36,992 nucleotides of DNA from Curvibacter sp. GTDB lineage: Bacteria > Pseudomonadota > Gammaproteobacteria > Burkholderiales > Burkholderiaceae_C. Each line of letters opens with the position of its first letter. Within the stretch, counting starts at the first letter, position 1. Position numbers and translations under genes: made by a program. The notes beneath the pieces are model-generated. The model was given only the letters and a program-made list of their open reading frames with translations, made no database searches and was not told the DNA's origin. The stretch lies in assembly GCA_019233055.1 (NCBI GenBank), contig JAFAMV010000071.1, positions 1-36,992 on the forward strand, read 5' to 3'. Shown one piece after another: positions 12,672-21,878 of the stretch.

Positions 12672-13115
12672 TCACTCGATCGCATACCCCATCGCCCGCA
12701 GCCGCCGCACCACCTCGGCCCTGGCCTTGGGCACATCGGCCGGGCGATTCGCCCTCAGGGCCTTGACCTCGTCGGCGGTATAGGGCGGCGCGTCGGCGGG
12801 GCGGCTGGTGCCTGCCATGCCGGCCAGCAGCCAGTTCATGAGGTCGGCGACCTGACGGTCGTCCAGCGGGGTGTTCATGACCCCTGGCACCTGCACGATG
12901 AGGGCCCGGCCTTCAGGCAGGCGCAGGAAATGCCCCAGCACCCCCGCCATGTTCGGGATGCCTCGCTCGGGTTTGCCAGAGCCGTCCTCCAGATGACAGC
13001 CCATGCACTGCAGCATGTAGTTGCGCTGCGGGCCCTGGACCGCCTGGGCAGACTGGCTGAGCACCGCTCCCAGCAGCCAGACGGTCAGCCATTTCCATCG
13101 ATGCGGGACGGCCAT
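12672..13115 (-). CDS. Monoheme cytochrome c of the aau cluster (distal)
   Basis: A 147-residue periplasmic protein with a signal peptide (MAVPHRWKWLTVWLLGAVLSQSAQA) and one haem motif, CMGCH, at about residues 37-41. The Met of PGVMNTPLDD is a plausible sixth ligand. It is the last gene of the leftward aau operon, 6 bases after the other cytochrome. With that one it could carry electrons from the TTQ enzyme to the respiratory chain. No azurin or amicyanin gene is visible, so the cytochromes are the best acceptor candidates. That assignment is inferred from position only. Confidence 0.85.
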   Translation of the reverse strand: MAVPHRWKWLTVWLLGAVLSQSAQAVQGPQRNYMLQCMGCHLEDGSGKPERGIPNMAGVLGHFLRLPEGRALIVQVPGVMNTPLDDRQVADLMNWLLAGMAGTSRPADAPPYTADEVKALRANRPADVPKARAEVVRRLRAMGYAIE

Positions 13116-13121
13116 CGGCGC

Positions 13122-13592
13122 TCAACCTCCCAGCGCCGCTTCGCGCTGCGCCCGCAAGGCCTTGGGGCTCTGACGTGTGGCCCGGGCGGCCGAGATGTCC
13201 TCGGGCTTGAAGGGCGCGGCCTGGGCCTGCCCCCCCAGCCCCACGACCACATGGGTCAGCACGGCCGCCAGCTCGTCGTCAGACAACTGCGCCTGAGAGG
13301 GCATCACGCTGTTGTAGCTCTGCCCTTCGGAGACGATGGGCCCCTGCAGCCCCTGCACCACCACCTGGGCCATGTAGGCCCGCACCGCAGGTCGATCGGC
13401 ACGCCGCGACAGCTCGCCCACCAGGGACGGGGCCAGTCCCGGGGCCCCCACCGCGCCGGCCTGGTGGCAGGCCACGCAGATCTGCTGGTAGACGGCCGCG
13501 CCGTCGGTGCCGGCCGCGCAAGGCAGCGCTATCACCAGGCCGGCGGCCAGACCGGCAGCCAGGCCGCACAGCTTGAACAAGGATGGCCGCAT
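13122..13592 (-). CDS. Monoheme cytochrome c of the aau cluster (proximal)
   Basis: A 156-residue class I cytochrome c. A hydrophobic signal sequence precedes AAVYQQICVACHQAGAVG, with haem motif CVACH. The MPSQAQLSDDEL segment supplies the usual axial Met and the C-terminal helix. A Cys sits at the end of the signal peptide (ALPCAAG), but the preceding residues do not make a proper lipobox. The tail after residue 125 is a charged extension. The ATG at 13592 is 3 bases after the aauA stop. Probable electron carrier for the amine dehydrogenase. Confidence 0.87.
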   Translation of the reverse strand: MRPSLFKLCGLAAGLAAGLVIALPCAAGTDGAAVYQQICVACHQAGAVGAPGLAPSLVGELSRRADRPAVRAYMAQVVVQGLQGPIVSEGQSYNSVMPSQAQLSDDELAAVLTHVVVGLGGQAQAAPFKPEDISAARATRQSPKALRAQREAALGG

Positions 13593-13594
13593 GC

Positions 13595-14140
13595 TCAGTC
13601 GTCCTTCTCGGCCACGCCAACGATGACGGAGGTGGTGCAGTGAAACGAGGAACTGTCGTTGGCCATGCACCAGTTGATGTCGTTGTGCTTGCCCATGCGG
13701 TAGCCCGGGCGGTCGCCGACATTGGTGTTGCACAGGCAGCGCCCGCAACTGCCGCGCCCGCAACAATCGTTGTAGCTGATGAGGTAGTCCTTGCCGTCGG
13801 CCGGGTTGTGGCAGGTGCCCACCCAGGCCACCTTGGACGGGGTGGTGCCCGGCGGGCAACTGGTGGCGCTGCCGCCGCAGCAGGAGCACAGAAAGCCGTC
13901 GACGGCGCAGTAGCGCCAGTAGTCGCAGTCGGTCTCGGTCGGCTCGCTCTTGTGTCCGCCGCTGCCATGGCCGGCAGCCAGGGCCTGCGAACTGCGGTCG
14001 AAGGGCAGCACCGGCAAGGTGAAGGCGGTGGCCACCATGAGGCGCCCCACGCCGACCAGGGCGCTGCGCCGCGAGGTCTGGCTGGCCAGGCCGCGGCTGC
14101 GGCGCTCGGTGAAGGCGTCAAGCCATTGCAGCAGCTTCAT
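13595..14140 (-). CDS. aauA: Aromatic amine dehydrogenase light chain (TTQ subunit)
   Basis: A 181-residue small subunit of a TTQ-dependent amine dehydrogenase. A long twin-arginine leader (SRRSALVGVGRLM, residues 23-35) precedes the mature chain. Aligned on family knowledge, the TTQ tryptophans are W106 (KVAWVGTC) and W157 (NDINWCMAN), 51 apart as in methylamine dehydrogenase (57/108). D81 (AVDG) and D125 (NDCC) match the conserved biogenesis and catalytic aspartates, and FHCT (166-169) supplies the catalytic Thr. The mature chain has 14 Cys; the extra pair (CSCCGG and SCGRCLC) and Phe166 in place of Tyr point to the aromatic amine (aralkylamine) enzyme rather than methylamine dehydrogenase. 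The start overlaps mauD by 4 bases. Confidence 0.93.
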   Translation of the reverse strand: MKLLQWLDAFTERRSRGLASQTSRRSALVGVGRLMVATAFTLPVLPFDRSSQALAAGHGSGGHKSEPTETDCDYWRYCAVDGFLCSCCGGSATSCPPGTTPSKVAWVGTCHNPADGKDYLISYNDCCGRGSCGRCLCNTNVGDRPGYRMGKHNDINWCMANDSSSFHCTTSVIVGVAEKDD

Positions 14141-14745
14141 GCGGGCTCCTTGTTCAGCTGGGTCTGGTCGATGTAGTCCTGCACCGAGGCCACGCGCAGA
14201 TCGCTGGCGGTGAACAGGCTGTCGATCTGCTCGCGGCTGTTGACCAGGCCCTTGGCACGCAGCACGCCCTGGCCATCGATGAGCACCGCATAGGGCAGCT
14301 TGGCGATGCGGAAACTCATGCCCAGCTCCTGCGACAGCAGGTAGGGGTAGTGGCCCAGCCCGGCCTTCTGGCGGAAGACCTCGTGCTCGGGCTGTTCTCC
14401 GTCCGAGGCCAGCACCACCTGCAGCCATGGGGCTTCGTCGCGGCGGATGGCGTCGAGGATGGGCAGCAGCTTCTTGCAGACCGGGCAGGTCGGCGACAGG
14501 AAGAACAGCAGGGTGCTGCGTGCCGCCGGCGCACCGATGTGCAGCAGTTCGCCGTTGAGGGACCGCACATCGAGGCGCGGTGCGGCCGAGCCCACGGCGG
14601 GGCCGGCGTCCATCATCAGCGCCCCCATGGGCGCGATGCGTTCGTAGAGGATGCCGACCTGGCGCGACAGGGCCAGCACCGCCACCACCAGGGCGATGAC
14701 GGCACACCAGGCCAGGATGTTGGAGATGATCAGGGTTTCGGTCAT
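14137..14745 (-). CDS. mauD: MauD-like thioredoxin-fold protein for TTQ enzyme maturation
   Basis: A 202-residue membrane-anchored thioredoxin-like protein. One N-terminal helix (about residues 5-28, IISNILAWCAVIALVVAVLAL) is followed by a periplasmic thioredoxin fold with the CxxC motif SPTCPVCKK and the cis-Pro region IAKLPYAVLIDG. MauD and MauE are needed for disulfide formation and stability of the cysteine-rich small subunit. The ATG at 14745 overlaps the mauE stop (ATGA), and the stop overlaps the aauA start, so translation is tightly coupled. A longer upstream frame exists but lacks sense. Confidence 0.92.
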   Translation of the reverse strand: MTETLIISNILAWCAVIALVVAVLALSRQVGILYERIAPMGALMMDAGPAVGSAAPRLDVRSLNGELLHIGAPAARSTLLFFLSPTCPVCKKLLPILDAIRRDEAPWLQVVLASDGEQPEHEVFRQKAGLGHYPYLLSQELGMSFRIAKLPYAVLIDGQGVLRAKGLVNSREQIDSLFTASDLRVASVQDYIDQTQLNKEPA

Positions 14746-15293
14746 GGGGCGTTCCTCAGTTCTTGCAGACGGGGCTGGTTGGCCAGCAATTGGTTGACCA
14801 CGGCATACAGGCCCATGGAAAACAAGGTGACGGCGCAGGTGGCCAGGCCGTCCGGCCAGCCCACCGGGCGTGCAGACAGCGGCAGCAGGGTCAGCAGGGC
14901 GCAGGCCAGCAGCACCGCATTGCGCCACAGCAGTCCGGGTGACAGCCGCAGGCCGACACCGGCGCCACAGCCGCAGTCGATCCGGCGCCGCCCCTGCTGC
15001 CAGGCCATTGCGACGGCGGTGCTGGCCACGCTCAGCACCAGCAGGGCCAGCAGCGCCCCCACTGCACGTGTCGGCCACGGAAGCAGGCACAGGCCGGCAG
15101 CCAGCTCCAGCAGGCTCAGGGTCCAGGCCGCAGCCGGCACCCAGCGCGCAGGCAGCAGGCCGTACTGCTCCATGGCGGCCTGGAACAGGGCCGGATCGCG
15201 CAGCTTGTGCAGCGCCCCGGGCAGCAGGATCAGCGCCAGGCTGGCGGCCAGGCCATGGCCCAGCACCGGGTCGAGGGTCAGGGCGAAGCTCAT
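14742..15293 (-). CDS. mauE: MauE-like membrane protein for TTQ enzyme maturation
   Basis: A 183-residue integral membrane protein with four to five hydrophobic segments. It has the GALHKLRDPALFQAAMEQYGLLP motif of the MauE/DoxX-like family and a Cys pair in RRIDCGCGAGVG, likely redox-active with MauD. It supports periplasmic disulfide formation in the TTQ subunit. Its ATG (15293) overlaps the aauB stop codon as TGATG; a TTG one codon earlier is less likely. It overlaps mauD by 4 bases. Confidence 0.88.
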   Translation of the reverse strand: MSFALTLDPVLGHGLAASLALILLPGALHKLRDPALFQAAMEQYGLLPARWVPAAAWTLSLLELAAGLCLLPWPTRAVGALLALLVLSVASTAVAMAWQQGRRRIDCGCGAGVGLRLSPGLLWRNAVLLACALLTLLPLSARPVGWPDGLATCAVTLFSMGLYAVVNQLLANQPRLQELRNAP

Positions 15294-16453
15294 CAATGGG
15301 CCTCCAGGTAGACCGGCGTCTCGCCCACGCCGTCGAAACGGGCCAGGGGCTTGCCCTGCAGCGAGCGGGCGTCGAAGGCCACCAGGCCGTTCTTCTCGGC
15401 GTCCAGCAGGAACAGCCGGGGCTGTTCGCGGCCCGACAGCGTCATGGCGATGGCGTTCTGCCCGGGCCAGCGGGCCAGGCGCCGCTGGCCGTCGAGGTCG
15501 AGCACCCAGATCTGCTGCGCCGGCGTCTTGTGCGCGCCGTCGGCCGCATTGCGGTGCATGCCGACGAACAGGCGGTTCTGCACGGCATCGATGGCGAACA
15601 GCTCATAGCCGCCCGGGCGCCAGCCGGCCTTACGCTCGGCCTCCGTCAGCAGCGACCAGGTCGGCAGGGGCTGCACACCGGCCACAGCGGCCTGCAGCGG
15701 ACGGACCTCGCCTCCGTAGGTGATGAAGTACAGCGTGTCGCCGCGCCAGTCGTAGTGGATGAACACCGGATCGGCATCGGGGTCGAAGAAGCGCACCCCT
15801 GTTGTGCGCGGCAGGGCCTGGCCCTGGGCGTCGAGCTCGACGGTGACAAGGGTGCCGTCGCCGCAGACCGTCGAGAAACGGCTGGGCTGGTGCGGCCAGG
15901 GGATCACGCCCCAGCAACCGGGTGTGGGCACCTCGCTGGCCACGCGCCGGCCAGCCAGGTCGACCACGGTGACCGTGCTGGCCGGGGTGGCGTTCTGCAC
16001 CAGCAGCCAGCGCCCGTCGGCGCTCGGCTGCACGGTACCGCGGATGTTGAGGGCCTGGGCATGGCGCGGCGGGATCTCGATCTCATGGCGCAGCGCCAGG
16101 TCATCGGTGCCATAGACCTCGACCACATCGCTGCGCGTGCCCCGATGCAGCCGCGAGTAATAGGTGGTGGCCACATACAGTTCGCGCCGGTCCGGCGACA
16201 GGGCCCATTGCCCGGCGAAACCGGTGCTCATGGCGCTGAGGTAACGCATCTGCCGGCCATCGACGACGTGCAGGCGGCCGTCGATCAGGTGGCTCATGGC
16301 CGGATCGGCCAGGTACAGGCGGTAGCGGGTGTCGCCGTCCAGCCTGGCGACCGTCTGGCGTTCATTGGGCAGGTCGCCCGCCCAGCCGGCAGCGGCGGCC
16401 AGGCCGGCGAGCAGACAGGACAGGGTGCGTCGGGCCCATCGTGATCGGATCAT
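15293..16453 (-). CDS. aauB: Aromatic amine dehydrogenase heavy chain
   Basis: A 386-residue periplasmic beta-propeller subunit. The signal peptide (MIRSRWARRTLSCLLAGLAAAAGWA) is followed by WD-like blades such as GQWALSPDRRELYVATTYYSR, DVVEVYGTDDL and QQIWVLDLDGQRRLARWPGQ. The FIHYDWRGDTLYFITYGGEV and GWRPGGYELFAIDAVQNRLFVG segments are typical of amine dehydrogenase heavy chains. It assembles with AauA into an alpha2beta2 enzyme that oxidises aryl-ethylamines such as tyramine or phenethylamine to aldehydes, releasing ammonia. AAGGAAGG precedes the ATG at 16453. First gene of the operon aauB-mauE-mauD-aauA-cytC-cytC. Confidence 0.93.
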   Translation of the reverse strand: MIRSRWARRTLSCLLAGLAAAAGWAGDLPNERQTVARLDGDTRYRLYLADPAMSHLIDGRLHVVDGRQMRYLSAMSTGFAGQWALSPDRRELYVATTYYSRLHRGTRSDVVEVYGTDDLALRHEIEIPPRHAQALNIRGTVQPSADGRWLLVQNATPASTVTVVDLAGRRVASEVPTPGCWGVIPWPHQPSRFSTVCGDGTLVTVELDAQGQALPRTTGVRFFDPDADPVFIHYDWRGDTLYFITYGGEVRPLQAAVAGVQPLPTWSLLTEAERKAGWRPGGYELFAIDAVQNRLFVGMHRNAADGAHKTPAQQIWVLDLDGQRRLARWPGQNAIAMTLSGREQPRLFLLDAEKNGLVAFDARSLQGKPLARFDGVGETPVYLEAH

Positions 16454-16499
16454 GGGGAAACCTTCCTTCTTCAGATGGCCTGGGCGGCCATTGCGAGAA

Positions 16500-16543
16500 A
16501 GGTTAGCCCGCAGGGGGCCGGCCCGTTATCCGATTCCGGCAAA
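16500..16543 (-). promoter_or_regulatory. Shared 44-bp promoter element, copy A (aauB)
   Basis: Read leftward, it begins TTTGCCGGAATCGGATAA (16543-16526), then 19 GC-rich bases, then CTAACCT (16506-16500), 46 bases before the aauB ATG. A copy with 15 of 18 matching bases in the first part and CTAGCCT at the end lies upstream of the amidase gene (20208-20252). It is likely an activator site abutting a -10-like TAACCT. No good -35 hexamer is present, as is usual for activated promoters. The LuxR-type or AraC-type regulator encoded nearby is a candidate to bind it. Confidence 0.6.
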
Positions 16544-16560
16544 GGCGCGCCGGTACCTGT

Positions 16561-17427
16561 TCAATGGGCCGACGGCTGCACGTTGTCGTTGAGCCAATGC
16601 ACCAGCCGGGCCGTGCTGCGCACCCCCAGCTTGGCCCGGATGCTGCGCAGTTGGTGATCCACCGTGGCCGGCGAACGGTCCAGTTGCCGCGCGACCTCCT
16701 TGTAGCTGAGCCCGCGGGCCACCAGGCGTGCCACCTTCAATTCGGCGGCGGTCAGGCCGGCCAGGGAGGCCGGCGGCGCCAGGACGCCCTCGTCGATGTC
16801 GACCGTCGCCGGCACATCGGCCTGGCGGTCGGCGGCCAGCCGGCCGGCCGTGGCCAGCACCGGCCCCAGCACCTCCTGGGTCAGGCCCTGGAGCTGGTTG
16901 CAGACCTCGGCATTCCAGCGCGGCGTCTCGCGCCCCCAGTCGGCGCAGATCATGCCCACCGGTCGGCGTCCTTCGCGCACCGGCAGGGCCAGCTTGGCCG
17001 CCGTACCCACGGCGGCCAGGGTGTTGCGCACCCCCTCGGTCAGGCTGCGCGCCTGCGACACCTCGGCGATCGCCATCACGCCGGGCTGCCCCCAGACGGT
17101 GCGCAGCCCCGCATCGGTGGCGCTGAAACGCAGCCCCAGCACCGAACTCAGCACCGCCCCGGCGCGCTGGGCCTCGGCCATCACGACATAGTCGCAGGTC
17201 CGGCCGCCCGAGGCGACGAAACCGCCGAAGCCGCCATCCACGCGGTCGGCTCCGAGCAGTTCGAGCAGCCAGTCGGTGGTGAGGCGCCAGCAACCCAGCG
17301 GGTCATCGAGGTAGAGCAGCAGCTGGGCGGCCAGTTCGCGCCCCGGCCGCCAGCGCACCGCCTGCGGCCCCTCGAACAGGCGCGCACGCATGTCGCGCTG
17401 AACCCGGAGGATTTCGTCGTCGTGCAT
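16561..17427 (-). CDS. LuxR-type regulator with a GAF-like sensor domain
   Basis: A 288-residue regulator. The N-terminal 200 residues resemble a GAF-type sensory domain (VGTAAKLALPVREGRRPVGMICADW). The C-terminus is a LuxR helix-turn-helix: LTAAELKVARLVARGLSYKE then RSPATVDHQLRSIRAKLGV. It has no receiver domain with a phosphorylatable Asp. It lies 107 bases upstream of aauB in the same direction and divergent from the aldehyde dehydrogenase gene, so it probably controls amine oxidation; that is inference from position. The ATG at 17427 lacks a clear ribosome binding site. Confidence 0.85.
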   Translation of the reverse strand: MHDDEILRVQRDMRARLFEGPQAVRWRPGRELAAQLLLYLDDPLGCWRLTTDWLLELLGADRVDGGFGGFVASGGRTCDYVVMAEAQRAGAVLSSVLGLRFSATDAGLRTVWGQPGVMAIAEVSQARSLTEGVRNTLAAVGTAAKLALPVREGRRPVGMICADWGRETPRWNAEVCNQLQGLTQEVLGPVLATAGRLAADRQADVPATVDIDEGVLAPPASLAGLTAAELKVARLVARGLSYKEVARQLDRSPATVDHQLRSIRAKLGVRSTARLVHWLNDNVQPSAH

Positions 17428-17575
17428 GGTCGGTGGGGGGACGGGCAATGGGTTTTCATTATGGGGCGCCCATCGCCAGCACGGCAGGCGGCTTCGGGGC
17501 CGGGTTTTCCCTTGGCGAATCTTCGCGATGGCCTCCACCCACCCGCCTGGACACACTGCAGGCAAGGTCGGCAGC

Positions 17576-17611
17576 CCCGCCACTCCCGCCACTCCCGCCA
17601 TTCCCGCCATC
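17576..17611 (+). repeat. 9-bp tandem repeat (four copies) upstream of the ALDH gene
   Basis: Four units in a row: CCCGCCACT, CCCGCCACT, CCCGCCATT, CCCGCCATC, followed by a decayed fifth (CCCGGCGGG). The array ends 50 bases before the GTG start of the aldehyde dehydrogenase gene. Such arrays can change length by slippage. The GGCGGGG that follows can pair with the CCCGCC units, giving a leader hairpin. Confidence 0.6.
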
Positions 17612-17661
17612 CCCGGCGGGGCCCGCCGACCGATCCCACAGCCCCCCTGATTGGAGACCCC

Positions 17662-19101
17662 GTGCTGAAAACTTTCGACAACACCGTGAACGGCCAGGCC
17701 GTGCCTGCGCAGCGCAGCTTCGAATCCCGCAACCCCGCCACAGGCGAGGTGCTGGGCCTGGTGCCCCACTCCAGCGCCGACCAGGTGGCCCAGGCGGTGG
17801 CGGCGGCGCGCGCCGCCCAGCCGGCCTGGGCCGCCCGGCCCGACGCCGAGCGCCAGGCCTATCTGATGAAGGTCGCCGAAACGCTGCACGCGCAGGCCGA
17901 CTACCTGGCCGAATGGATCACCCGCGAGCAGGGCAAGCCGCTGGGCGGCGTGGGGCCGGGCCAGGTGCCGGGCTCGCGCTTCGAGGCCTGGGGCTGCGAG
18001 GTCTGGACCCAGGTGCCGGCCAGCCTGGAGCTGCCGCCCGAGGTGGTGTTCGAGGATGCCGGCCGCCGCGACGTGCTGCACCGCAGGCCCTTTGGCGTGG
18101 TGGCCGCGATCGCGCCCTGGAACTGGCCCCTGCTCATCGCCATCTGGCAGATCATCCCCTCGCTGCGCACCGGCAACACCGTGGTGCTCAAGCCCTCCGA
18201 ATACACCAGCATCTGCTCGCTCGAGATGGCCCGGCTGATCGCATCCGTGCTGCCGCCCGGCGTTCTCAACACGGTCAGCGGCCCGGGCGAGGTGGGCTCG
18301 CTGCTGGTCGAGAACCCCGGCGTGGACAAGATCATGTTCACCGGCTCCGGCGCCACCGGCGCCCGCATCACGGCCGCAGCGGCCAAGCACCTCACCCCGA
18401 CGACCCTGGAGCTGGGCGGCAACGATGCGGCCATCGTGCTGCCCGACGCCAACCCCAAGGCGATCGCCATGGACCTGTTCTGGGGCGCCTTCCTCAACAT
18501 GGGCCAGACCTGCGCCTGCGCCAAGCGCCTGTATGTCCACGAGGATCTGCACGACGCCCTGGTGGCCGAGCTGAAGGCCCTGGCCACCGCCATGCCCATG
18601 GGCAACGGCCTGCAGCCCGGCATCGCCATGGGGCCGATCCAGAACCGCATGCAGTACGACAAGGTGGTGTCGCTGGTCGAACAGGCCCGGGCAGCGGGGG
18701 CCACCATCGTCTGCGGCGGCCAGGCCCTCGAGGGGCCGGGCCATTTCTACCCCCTGACCCTGGTGACCGACATCGCCGACGGCGCCCCCCTGGTCGACCA
18801 GGAACAGTTCGGACCGGTGCTGCCGATCATCCGCTACCGCGACCTCGATCAGGCCATCGCCAGCGCCAACCGCCTCGATGTGGGCCTGGGGGCCTCGGTC
18901 TGGTCGCAGGACCTGGAGCAGGCACAGGCGGTGGCCCTGCGCCTGCAGGCCGGCACGGTGTGGATCAACCAGCACGGGGCCATCCACCCCATGGTGCCCT
19001 TCGGCGGCGTCAAGAGTTCGGGCTGGGGGGTGGAATTCGGGATGGACGGATTGAAAGCCATGACCCAAGCTCAGGTCGTCAGCCTGAAAAAACCCAGTTG
19101 A
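17662..19101 (+). CDS. NAD(P)-dependent aldehyde dehydrogenase
   Basis: A 479-residue aldehyde dehydrogenase of the large ALDH superfamily. Catalytic residues are visible: N154 in PWNWPLL, E250 in LELGGNDA and C284 in GQTCACA; the C-terminal PFGGVKSSGWG is also typical. The start is a GTG at 17662 with GGAG five bases upstream; the frame is open far to the left but there it only mirrors the opposite-strand regulator. By position it would oxidise the aldehyde made by the amine dehydrogenase (for example arylacetaldehyde to arylacetate). Substrate preference cannot be read from the sequence. Confidence 0.93.
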   Translation: MLKTFDNTVNGQAVPAQRSFESRNPATGEVLGLVPHSSADQVAQAVAAARAAQPAWAARPDAERQAYLMKVAETLHAQADYLAEWITREQGKPLGGVGPGQVPGSRFEAWGCEVWTQVPASLELPPEVVFEDAGRRDVLHRRPFGVVAAIAPWNWPLLIAIWQIIPSLRTGNTVVLKPSEYTSICSLEMARLIASVLPPGVLNTVSGPGEVGSLLVENPGVDKIMFTGSGATGARITAAAAKHLTPTTLELGGNDAAIVLPDANPKAIAMDLFWGAFLNMGQTCACAKRLYVHEDLHDALVAELKALATAMPMGNGLQPGIAMGPIQNRMQYDKVVSLVEQARAAGATIVCGGQALEGPGHFYPLTLVTDIADGAPLVDQEQFGPVLPIIRYRDLDQAIASANRLDVGLGASVWSQDLEQAQAVALRLQAGTVWINQHGAIHPMVPFGGVKSSGWGVEFGMDGLKAMTQAQVVSLKKPS

Positions 19102-19113
19102 AACTGCCACGCC

Positions 19114-19134
19114 GGGGGCGGCGCAAGCGCCCCC
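19114..19134 (+). other. GC-rich hairpin between the ALDH gene and the araC-type gene
   Basis: GGGGGCG (19114-19120), loop GCGCAAG, CGCCCCC (19128-19134): a 7-bp perfect stem in the 52-bp gap. There is no U-run after it, so it is a weak terminator candidate. It may instead lower read-through, or stabilise the mRNA, between the two genes. Confidence 0.35.
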
Positions 19135-19153
19135 TGGCCCTCAGCCCACCACC

Positions 19154-20149
19154 ATGAGCCCTGCCGACGACCACCCCGCCATCCTGGTGCGCAGCACCGA
19201 GTCCCATGACATCGACCTGCACACCCAGCAGCTGCAGAACTGGGACCTGCGCTACGAGCAGCTGGATTGCGGTCGCTTCGAGGGCGCCTTCTCCGAGGTG
19301 CGCTGGCCGGGCATGCAGATCTTCATCGAGCGCACCACCCGGCGCATCCGCCAGCGCGGCATGCTGCCGGCCGACGCCTGTGGCGCCGGCATCCTGCTCG
19401 AAGGCCAGGGCCCGGTGTGCCTCAACGGCCAGCAGTCGGACCGGGGGACCCTGATCGCCTGCGACGCGGCCGAACTCGACCTCTGCACGCCGGCCGACTG
19501 CACGCTGGCCGGCATGGTCATCGACGGCCCGCTGCTGCGCGAGGCCACCCGGCGCCTGTCCGACCTCGACGCCCTGCTGCAGCCCGGTGCCCTGCTCGCG
19601 ATGAAGCCGCCCGAAGCCAGCCTGGCGCCCTGGCGCACCCTGCTGACCCAGAGCGTGCAGACCGTCAGCCGCCAACCGGCCCTGATGGACGATGACGGAT
19701 TCCGCCAGCGCCTGCAGGACGACCTGCTCTACAGCCTGATCAGCGCCATGGAGGGCGCCCACCGCGCCCAGCGCATCTACCCCTGCGACCGCCGCAAGCG
19801 GATCGTCGACCGCGCCTGCGAGCTGATCCTGTCGCGCCCCGATGCGCCGCCCACCATGCTCGAGGTGTGCGACCAGGTCGGCGCTAGCCCGCGCAAGCTC
19901 GGCTACTGCTTCAACGAGGTGCTGGGCCTGAGCCCGGCGCGCTACATCAAGGCGGTCCGCCTCAATGCGGTGCGGCGCGAACTGAGCCACGGCGAAGCCG
20001 CCGGCTGCAGCGTCTACGACGTGGCCGCCCGCTGGGGCTTCTGGCATTTCGGGCATTTCTCGGCCGACTACAAGCGCCAGTTCGCCGAACTGCCGTCCGA
20101 GACCCTGCGCCGCGGACGCCTGCGGCAGACGCCCCCAGTCCGGCACTGA
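19154..20149 (+). CDS. AraC-family regulator, EutR-like
   Basis: A 331-residue AraC-type regulator. The N-terminal sensor domain (about 1-220) has no recognisable ligand motif. The C-terminal DNA-binding domain (about 225-325) includes TMLEVCDQVGASPRKLGYCFNEVLGLSPARYIKAVRLNAVRREL and the characteristic VAARWGFWHFGHFSADYKRQF followed by ELPSETL. The WGFWHxGHFxxDYK signature is that of the EutR subgroup, which activates ethanolamine use. Here it sits next to amine-oxidation genes, so it may sense an amine or aldehyde; this is inference. It is 52 bases after the ALDH gene, probably partly cotranscribed. Confidence 0.87.
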   Translation: MSPADDHPAILVRSTESHDIDLHTQQLQNWDLRYEQLDCGRFEGAFSEVRWPGMQIFIERTTRRIRQRGMLPADACGAGILLEGQGPVCLNGQQSDRGTLIACDAAELDLCTPADCTLAGMVIDGPLLREATRRLSDLDALLQPGALLAMKPPEASLAPWRTLLTQSVQTVSRQPALMDDDGFRQRLQDDLLYSLISAMEGAHRAQRIYPCDRRKRIVDRACELILSRPDAPPTMLEVCDQVGASPRKLGYCFNEVLGLSPARYIKAVRLNAVRRELSHGEAAGCSVYDVAARWGFWHFGHFSADYKRQFAELPSETLRRGRLRQTPPVRH

Positions 20150-20207
20150 GGTTGCGGGACAGGGTCTGATGGAGCTTTGCGACGGGCGAGCCAGATGCCG
20201 CCCCAGC

Positions 20208-20252
20208 TTTGCCGAATCCGGATAAGCGCCCGGAGGCCGCAGGGCCTAGCCT
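20208..20252 (+). promoter_or_regulatory. Shared 45-bp promoter element, copy B (amidase)
   Basis: TTTGCCGAATCCGGATAA (20208-20225), 20 GC-rich bases, CTAGCCT (20246-20252), then 42 bases to the amidase ATG. It matches copy A upstream of aauB in sequence, internal spacing (20 versus 19) and distance to the start codon (42 versus 46). Both leaders then contain CCCAGGCC. The likeness is direct observation; co-regulation is inferred. Confidence 0.6.
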
Positions 20253-20294
20253 CGGAACCTGTTCCCAGGCCTCCACTGCAGCGAAAGACACGCC

Positions 20295-21878
20295 ATGAGC
20301 ATTCACGACACCCCCACCCCGACCTCGTCCCCAGAGCAACCAGCCACCACCGACCGCCGACGTTTTCTCCAACTCGGCGCCGCCCTGGCCACCGCGTCAG
20401 CAGCGCGCCCGGGCAGCGCCGCCGCCCCGGCAGGGCTGCCCGGCGGCGCCCTGACCTCCTGGACCGCACTCGACCTGTCGCGCGCCATCCAGGCCCGCGA
20501 AGTGTCCTGCCGCGAGGTGATGACGGCCTACCTCGACCAGATCGATCGCTTCAACCCCCAGGTGAATGCCATCGTGTCGCTGCAGCCCCGCGACGCATTG
20601 CTGCAGCAGGCCGACGACAAGGATGCCCTGCTCGCCAAGGGCCAGTCCATGGGCTGGATGCACGGTCTGCCGCAGGCCCCCAAAGACCTCGCCAACACCG
20701 CCGGCATCACCACCACCCAGGGCTCGCCCATCCTGCGACACAACGTGCCCAAGACCGACGCGATCATCGTCGAGCGGGCGCGGCGGGCAGGCGCCATCCT
20801 CATCGGCAAGACCAACACCCCCGAATTCGGCCTCGGCTCGCACACCTACAACGCGGTGTTCGGCACCACGCTAAATGCCTTCGATCCCCGCAAGAGCGCC
20901 GGGGGCAGCAGCGGCGGGGCGGCGGTGGCGCTGGCGCTGCACATGCTGCCGGTGGCCGACGGCAGCGACATGATGGGCTCGCTGCGCAATCCGGCCGGCT
21001 GGAACAACGTCTTCGGCTTCCGCCCCTCCTTCGGCCGGGTGCCCTTCGGACCGACCAGCGAGGTCTTCGTGCAGCAGCTCGGCTACGAAGGCCCGATGGG
21101 CAGGACCATGGCCGACCTGGCCCAACTGCTGTCGGTGCAGGCCGGCTTCGATGCCCGCTGCCCCCTGTCCATCGACCAGCCTGCCTCGCAGTTTGCACGC
21201 CCGCTGGGACGCGACTTCAAGGGCGCGCGCATCGGCTGGCTGGGCGACTACCAGGGCTATCTGCCCACCGAGCCCGGTGTGCTGGCCACCTGCGAGAAGG
21301 CGCTGCGCCACTTCGAGGCGATGGGCTGCCGGGTCGAGGCGGTACAACCCGACTTCGCCATGGAACGGCTCTGGAAGACCTGGCTGACCTGGCGCGGCTT
21401 CCTGATCGCAGGCATTGCCGGCAGCCTCCATGCCAACCCCCAGTTGCGCGCGCAGATGAAGCCCGAGGCCGTCTGGGAGGTGGAAAACGGCCTGCGCCTG
21501 AGTGCCGCCGATGTCTACCGGGCCTCGGTCGACCGCAGCGCCTGGTACCAGGCGCTCAACACCCTGTACCAGTCCTACGACTTCCTGGTGCTGCCCACCG
21601 CCCAGGTCTTTCCCTTCGACGCCCAGCTGCATTGGCCCACCGAGATCGCCGGCAAGACGATGGACACCTACCACCGCTGGATGGAGGTGGTGGTCGGCGG
21701 CACGCTGGCCGGCCTGCCGACCCTGGCGGTGCCGGCGGGCTTCGGGCCCCAGGGGCAGCCCATGGGCCTGCAGATCATGGGCCGCGCCCAGGCCGATCTG
21801 TCGGTGCTGCAGCTAGGCCATGCCTATGAGCAGGCCAGCGGCTGCAGCCGCGTCAGCAGCCCGCTCCTGAGCGCCTGA
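20295..21878 (+). CDS. Tat-exported amidase (amidase-signature family)
   Basis: A 527-residue amidase-signature hydrolase. The N-terminus has a twin-arginine signal (DRRRFLQLGAALATASA, from residue 20), so it should fold in the cytoplasm and act in the periplasm. The Ser-cisSer-Lys triad is visible: K130 (QAPKDL), S206 (GGSSGG) and S229 (MMGSLRNPAG), with spacings of 76 and 23 that fit the family. The family hydrolyses amide bonds of small molecules; the natural substrate is unknown. It shares a promoter element with the aau operon, so it may release an aromatic amine or acid that feeds that pathway (inference). The ATG at 20295 has no strong ribosome binding site. Confidence 0.92.
   Translation: MSIHDTPTPTSSPEQPATTDRRRFLQLGAALATASAARPGSAAAPAGLPGGALTSWTALDLSRAIQAREVSCREVMTAYLDQIDRFNPQVNAIVSLQPRDALLQQADDKDALLAKGQSMGWMHGLPQAPKDLANTAGITTTQGSPILRHNVPKTDAIIVERARRAGAILIGKTNTPEFGLGSHTYNAVFGTTLNAFDPRKSAGGSSGGAAVALALHMLPVADGSDMMGSLRNPAGWNNVFGFRPSFGRVPFGPTSEVFVQQLGYEGPMGRTMADLAQLLSVQAGFDARCPLSIDQPASQFARPLGRDFKGARIGWLGDYQGYLPTEPGVLATCEKALRHFEAMGCRVEAVQPDFAMERLWKTWLTWRGFLIAGIAGSLHANPQLRAQMKPEAVWEVENGLRLSAADVYRASVDRSAWYQALNTLYQSYDFLVLPTAQVFPFDAQLHWPTEIAGKTMDTYHRWMEVVVGGTLAGLPTLAVPAGFGPQGQPMGLQIMGRAQADLSVLQLGHAYEQASGCSRVSSPLLSA

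Follow-up and report, generated by a model that had tools for sequence, protein, structure and literature searches.

EutR binds and activates the promoter upstream of eutS, according to the available text of two reports (PMC8565329; PMC4643982), and the accessible part of PMC11101070 refers to a putative site for EutR in the eut promoter of Klebsiella. For XylS and BenR, the passages available to us give the half-site as TGCA-N6-GGNTA (PMC4514859; PMC6449761), and excerpts of a review treat box A, box B and the two recognition helices of AraC/XylS proteins (PMC5481539). As far as its accessible text goes, the open-licence literature yielded no AraC-type regulator tied to an aromatic amine dehydrogenase operon. 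Here we describe a promoter element that lies upstream both of such an operon (aau) and of an amidase gene in the window, by which we mean the whole stretch of 36,992 nucleotides that was analyzed. Each copy of the element is very probably the core of an activator-dependent promoter to which the EutR-like AraC/XylS-family protein P0002, encoded between the two, would bind.

Results

Genes and operator copies in the window

The aau operon and the amidase gene are separated by genes for a LuxR-type regulator, an aldehyde dehydrogenase and P0002 (Table 1). The operon shows the aau gene order of large subunit, mauE-like, mauD-like and small subunit, which is also the order in a record annotated aauB; judged by gene order in relatives, its last two genes occupy the place that cytochromes hold in other aau operons. 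By homology, aromatic amines would be the substrate of the window's amine dehydrogenase. Long open frames run on both strands over 2.5 kb (16564-19101 on the plus strand, 16561-19110 on the minus strand), probably as an effect of high G+C, and frames of this kind can mislead the gene calling of the LuxR-type and aldehyde dehydrogenase genes. Several relatives (L043, L047, L049) have an uncommon LuxR-type protein close to aau or to its aldehyde dehydrogenase.

Table 1. Genes and promoter elements of the window, with two related boxes from another contig of the same genome
Feature	Position	Strand	Basis or remark
Remaining aau operon: aauE/mauE-like, aauD/mauD-like, aauA (small subunit) and two genes	12672-15296	-	PF07291, PF02975; TIGR02661, TIGR02659
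aauB, amine dehydrogenase large subunit, first gene of the aau operon	15293-16453	-	PF06433 4.2e-43
-10-like hexamer TAACCT	16500-16505	-	20 nt downstream of operator copy 1
Operator copy 1, TTTGCCGGAATCGGATAA	16526-16543	-	5′ of aauB; direct reading of the sequence
LuxR-type regulator gene	16561-17427	-	PF00196; ends 17 nt before operator copy 1
Aldehyde dehydrogenase gene	17662-19104	+	PF00171; just 5′ of the AraC gene
EutR-like AraC/XylS-family regulator gene (P0002)	19154-20149	+	Pfam HTH_18 7.9e-23; NCBIfam EutR 156 bits
His301 codon, residue proposed to read operator base 13	20054-20056	+	Sequence alignment, co-variation
Operator copy 2, TTTGCCGAATCCGGATAA	20208-20225	+	5′ of the amidase gene; direct reading of the sequence
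-10-like hexamer TAGCCT	20247-20252	+	21 nt downstream of operator copy 2
Amidase gene	20295-21878	+	PF01425 1.9e-81; NF005686 793.7 bits
Two further boxes TTGCGC...CGATAA	G000 contig C27 34681-34724, 44358-44400 (L172)		C at base 13

Gapless alignment of the two operator copies gives TTTGCCG-N4-CGGATAA, in which all 14 fixed bases are identical (15/18 overall). Either box is followed 20 or 21 nt on by TA[AG]CCT, a -10-like TAnnnT; measured to CTAACCT and CTAGCCT, the spacers are 19 and 20 nt, and another 46 and 42 nt lead to the ATG. Positions, identity, spacers and distances to the start codon are thus all as an earlier note on this DNA had given them. That note had also counted CCCAGGCC, found in both leaders, as part of the shared layout; the sequence occurs 30 times within the window and so carries no weight, and it was dropped as a part of the element.

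When the window was searched for the 18-mer with up to three mismatches, only these two places were found, against 0.01 expected per shuffled window, and their likeness is therefore not a matter of chance. A motif drawn from the two copies and scanned over the genome, as the earlier note had suggested, behaved in the same way: the pattern TTGCCNNANNNNGATAN{20,23}YANNNT matched the 4,967,727-base genome twice, both times at the window boxes, and the reversed control gave no match. Two-mismatch matches elsewhere in the genome (L003-L010) were judged to be chance; by eye, YAnnnT is absent 19-22 nt downstream of them.

Conservation upstream of aauB

At least 27 of the 399 genomes of the window's family hold aauB, the window's own counted and up to four candidates scored per genome, and the 400 nt upstream of the gene were taken from the 26 others. 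A consensus from the window copies alone, requiring at least 11 of 14 bases plus TAnnnT at 19-22 nt, matched 7 of these 26 regions; 200 dinucleotide shuffles of all 26 gave no match. A matrix was trained on 21 sites of the window's family, located 5′ of aauB or of a divergent gene next to it, and 5′ of two amidases. Applied leave-one-out, with the matrix rebuilt each time and four pairs of near-identical relatives removed jointly, it found sites in 22 of the 27 aauB regions (window included) that beat all 200 of their own mononucleotide shuffles. The score of the L054 region was matched by 1 of 200 such shuffles, and the aauB upstream regions of L046, L049, L050 and L064 yielded no site by the leave-one-out matrix. 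YAnnnT follows at 18-23 nt after 19 of the 23 aauB sites and is lacking for L051, L052, L055 and L058. Within the window, no further operator reached a score of 8 upstream of the aldehyde dehydrogenase or LuxR gene or between the two.

The strongest columns at the aauB sites are TTGCC and GATA, followed by YAnnnT 20-21 nt on, and no further conserved columns stand out upstream of the box. This profile bears on the idea that the element is a shared sigma-factor promoter core that needs no specific activator. The -10-like hexamer at an almost fixed distance is what such a core would have; the most conserved columns, however, are those of the box, and two places in 4.97 Mb are too few for a sigma-factor promoter, which makes this reading highly improbable. 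A sigma-70 scan of 16400-20400 returned 0 matches, which means little with 0.1 expected.

In a second aau group (L051-L063), whose aauB is 41-46% identical, the boxes mostly end in GTGATAG/T. Beside aauB in L042 (10643) and L043 (7409) a box also occurs in the opposite orientation, where it precedes a DUF1329 gene in L042 and, by eye, a similar-looking frame in L043.

A second set was made of the 80 best among 304 named aauB loci. Of these 80, 13 lie on contigs already used and 1 has too little upstream DNA, which left 66 loci new to the matrix, some of them close kin of training sites. A site scoring at least 15 is present in 46 of the 66 (mononucleotide shuffles expect 0.15), and at 30 of these sites YAnnnT follows after 19-22 nt. 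Six aauB records on plasmids or chromids were also compared. The box of Cupriavidus pinatubonensis p1 faces aauB, with a score of 18.7 and TATAGT 20 nt on; in three Burkholderia records it scores 17.0 and faces a divergent AraC gene, not aauB; and Pseudomonas aeruginosa RW109 and Chimaeribacter arupi have no box in the 400 nt upstream of aauB. The Burkholderia box (L181-L183, about 3770, minus strand) sits between aauB and the divergent AraC gene, as for autoregulation. Over the 399 family genomes the pattern gave 82 matches, versus 31 in the reversed control, and 13 of the 82 lie directly 5′ of aauB and face it. Because many of the other single matches must be chance, they were not used to name members of the regulon.

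Conservation upstream of the amidase gene

Amidase homologues (E 1e-80 or better) were sought in 51 genomes that have aauB or the AraC gene, the window's own left out; 25 of the 51 hold one, and 30 loci were read. A box lies just 5′ of three homologues (G507 contig 23, G776 and G582), all of them near an EutR-like AraC gene, and the other 27 have no box upstream. G776 and G582 are a congeneric pair with an identical amidase box, which had served to train the matrix, unlike the box of G507. Several box-less amidases are closer to the window's than are two of the three boxed ones. Since mononucleotide shuffles give 0.01 per 30 amidase regions at a score of 20, three boxed loci in 30 indicate that the link to the amidase is real, though not general.

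Conservation in orthologous upstream regions had been set beforehand as the test of shared control. The outcome is strong at aauB (46/66 among the best 80 of 304 named loci) and confined to fewer cases at the amidase (3/30). With this backing, a single regulator for the aauB and amidase promoters, as the earlier note had proposed, is the best-supported reading. A chance likeness of two unrelated promoters is what one might suspect from the presence of only two copies in the genome and from the many amidase homologues that have no box. Against the near-zero expectation in shuffled windows (0.01), the genome count of 2 versus 0 in the reversed control, and the conservation at aauB orthologues, the probability of such a coincidence is close to nil.

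The amidase begins with DRRRFLQLGAALATASAA, which by eye resembles a twin-arginine signal (window 20295-20420). RR motifs also occur near the N-terminus of the amidase homologues L097 and L098 and are absent in L122 and L123. Were the amidase exported, it could supply an amine dehydrogenase that is exported too.

Assignment of the regulator

P0002 has its HTH_18 match at residues 239-320 (7.9e-23), and hence the C-terminal double helix-turn-helix domain; its solved relatives by sequence are 3mn2 and 3oio. Among 30 loci fetched with this AraC protein, 17 have a box followed by YAnnnT (score at least 11.5, window included), 3 have a box only and 10 have no box. Some of these stretches contain aauB and most do not, and an EutR-like AraC gene can have a box next to it also where the stretch holds no aauB. 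By Pfam, the genes behind the box at EutR-like loci encode EutB (L175), amino-acid permeases (L176, L079), a class-I glutamine amidotransferase (L088), a histone-deacetylase-like protein (L171, beside aau), an aldehyde dehydrogenase (L174), a TctC-type receptor (L177) and DUF1329 proteins (L082, L042).

An EutR-like gene lies within the fetched stretch in 38 of the 66 new aauB loci (from the best 80 of 304), and a site scoring at least 12 is present at 37 of these 38 loci versus 16 of the 28 without the gene (p 5.8e-5). At a score of at least 15 the same loci give 31/38 versus 15/28, a weak difference (p 0.029); 15 of the 66 thus have a score-15 site in a fetched stretch that lacks an EutR-like gene.

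The earlier note had named two candidate regulators, the LuxR-type protein and the EutR-like AraC protein. The former was favored at first as the binder of both boxes: TTTGCCG-N4-CGGATAA is partly a dyad in both window copies (5/7 arm positions), and its center would lie near -41.5, as in lux boxes. Other points in its favor are the 17 nt that separate the end of the LuxR gene from operator copy 1 and the LuxR homologues near aau in some relatives. The dyad is lost, however, in orthologous sites such as TTTGCCGAATCGTGATAG, which do not have the symmetry of a LuxR-type operator. Nor does the presence of LuxR track the element. Homologues were found in 7 of the 26 aauB genomes, 5 of which have the box, as do 17 of the other 19 genomes (L052 and L054 taken as box-positive); G499 and G727 both have a homologue and no box. 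The boxes beside EutR-like AraC genes in aauB-free stretches likewise speak against LuxR. Given the missing symmetry and the untracked presence, LuxR was dropped, and we consider it very unlikely to bind both boxes. An AraC-type regulator, and among the two candidates the EutR-like protein, is favored instead on account of the AraC/XylS architecture of the element, the EutR-like neighborhood of boxes away from aauB, and the co-variation of recognition helix and operator described below.

Operator base 13 and the EutR-like paralogues

The second recognition helix of P0002 reads GFWHFGHF, and His301 aligns with XylS Arg296 (number confirmed on the sequence), which we take to contact DNA. The residue at this position seems to co-vary with operator base 13 in the EutR-like family. 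The first set was drawn from regulators that have, no more than 6 kb away, a box followed by YAnnnT; it gave 25 distinct pairs, column 13 being left unscored. Another 25 regulator matches with no such box in range stood outside it, several being repeats of one gene from a shorter stretch, and both EutR proteins were among the regulators outside the set. Of the 13 pairs with H/R, 11 have G and 2 have T, and all 12 pairs with Q/E have C/T (p 2e-5, kinship ignored). The two exceptions share the helix GFSSASH and come from the second aau group.

The new named loci (best 80 of 304), which had no part in making the rule, pair H/R with G in 24/24 and Q with T/C in 7/7 (p 3.8e-7, kinship ignored). Two of their 38 regulators, both H/R with G, were left uncounted for site scores below 12; five further helices fell outside the search expression, and by eye four of these have Q/S with C/T and the fifth is frame-broken. 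The rule also holds for EutR, which has Q where the eutS box has T, and for XylS, which has R and a G in each of its boxes. On a tree of 45 regulators the residue changes three times, and over random pairings the base changed alike in 2.9 of the 3. With about three independent switches a sign test cannot reach 0.05, so the co-variation is given no tree-based significance.

The genome from which the window comes holds three EutR-like AraC genes. When TTGCS is allowed in the pattern, there are five genome matches versus none in the control; two are the window boxes, four lie within 2.6 kb of one of the three EutR-like genes, and the fifth, on contig C79, may be chance. On contig C27, distances of 129 and 96 nt separate the boxes from two further EutR-like open frames, whose helices have Q or E. 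One of these boxes lies 125 nt before an aldehyde dehydrogenase-like frame that is followed by an aminotransferase-like frame (both by eye), and the other precedes a DUF1329 gene. Three paralogues with distinct boxes in one cell are the picture that insulated duplicates would give.

Being of the same family and having the same operator type, one of the C27 paralogues might be thought to bind the window boxes as well. In these paralogues C at base 13 is paired with Q or E in the helix, as opposed to G in the window boxes and H in P0002, and it is the P0002 gene that ends just 58 nt before the amidase box; we regard binding by either C27 paralogue as very unlikely.

Discussion

With P0002 as the activator, a single molecule would place its two helix-turn-helix motifs in neighboring major grooves of the 18-bp box, contacting TTGCC and GGATA, which begin 10-11 bp from each other, and His301 would read base 13. 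The box would stand in for the -35 element, and RNA polymerase would take TAnnnT about 20 nt downstream as the -10 element, as in class II activation. The aau operon and the amidase would then be switched on together by an inducing amine or amide, plausibly an aromatic amine. The predicted operator shape fits a bipartite AraC/XylS site with boxes one helical turn apart, and the element reads as a putative AraC/XylS-type half-site, TGCC-N6-GGATA, at the -35 position. A class II activator at that position is the natural reading, given the XylS-like half-site, the sites predicted upstream of eutS (below) and the reported activation by EutR upstream of eutS; we infer activation rather than repression.

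More broadly, EutR-like activators across beta- and gamma-proteobacteria may share one operator design for amine catabolism, with a one-residue, one-base switch that insulates duplicates, a proposal to which we give an even chance of being right. If it is, H/R at the XylS Arg296 position selects G at base 13, and Q/E/S selects C/T. In the window's own genome the paralogue with H would then serve the aau and amidase boxes and those with Q and E the C27 boxes, the three being mutually insulated.

The analysis proposes a candidate regulator and operator for the aau operon, for which we found none described in the accessible text of the open-licence literature, and it ties an amidase to that operon. 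It also predicts an EutR site 5′ of E. coli eutS and, for a widespread subfamily of AraC proteins, suggests a rule that links residue and base.

Among known systems, FeaR of E. coli is similar in being an AraC-family activator that adjoins an amine oxidase and a phenylacetaldehyde dehydrogenase gene. The FeaR system differs in that the E. coli enzyme is a copper oxidase, and the FeaR NCBIfam model gives P0002 40.7 bits (cutoff 199). The feaR-feaB and tynA upstream regions had no matrix match at a score of 9.

EutR (NF007522) is the best NCBIfam model for P0002. The match reaches 156.2 bits, short of the equivalog cutoff of 319, the two proteins are 29% identical, and EutR is encoded with ethanolamine ammonia-lyase genes, whereas the neighbors of P0002 are the aldehyde dehydrogenase, the amidase and aau. 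On these scores P0002 is related to EutR but is not EutR. The matrix, made solely from sites of the window's family, nonetheless places its best site in the upstream region of eutS 55 nt before that gene in E. coli K-12 (CTTGCCGAATTTTGTTAT; L187 11862, minus strand) and 54 nt before it in K. pneumoniae (CTTGCCGAAATTTGTTAT; L188 16085, minus strand). Either score was matched by 1 of 2000 mononucleotide shuffles. The predicted eutS site may be the same as one drawn before, since PMC11101070 mentions a putative site in the Klebsiella promoter.

XylS responds to benzoates and has two tandem boxes, 21 bp apart; the window element has one box only, and a second XylS-like box 18-24 nt upstream of the window copies matches at most 4 of 8 positions. 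On the 24-kb pWW0 sequence the distal XylS box shares the top matrix score with a site that lies within another gene; the proximal box reaches only 9.0. The half-site itself agrees closely, TGCC-N6-GGATA in both window copies matching 7 of the 8 fixed positions of the XylS/BenR half-site. At Pm, as read on pWW0, the nearer XylS box lies 21 nt from TAGGCT, much like the 20-21 nt that separate the window boxes from TAnnnT. From its sequence, the element is best called an operator of the AraC/XylS kind.
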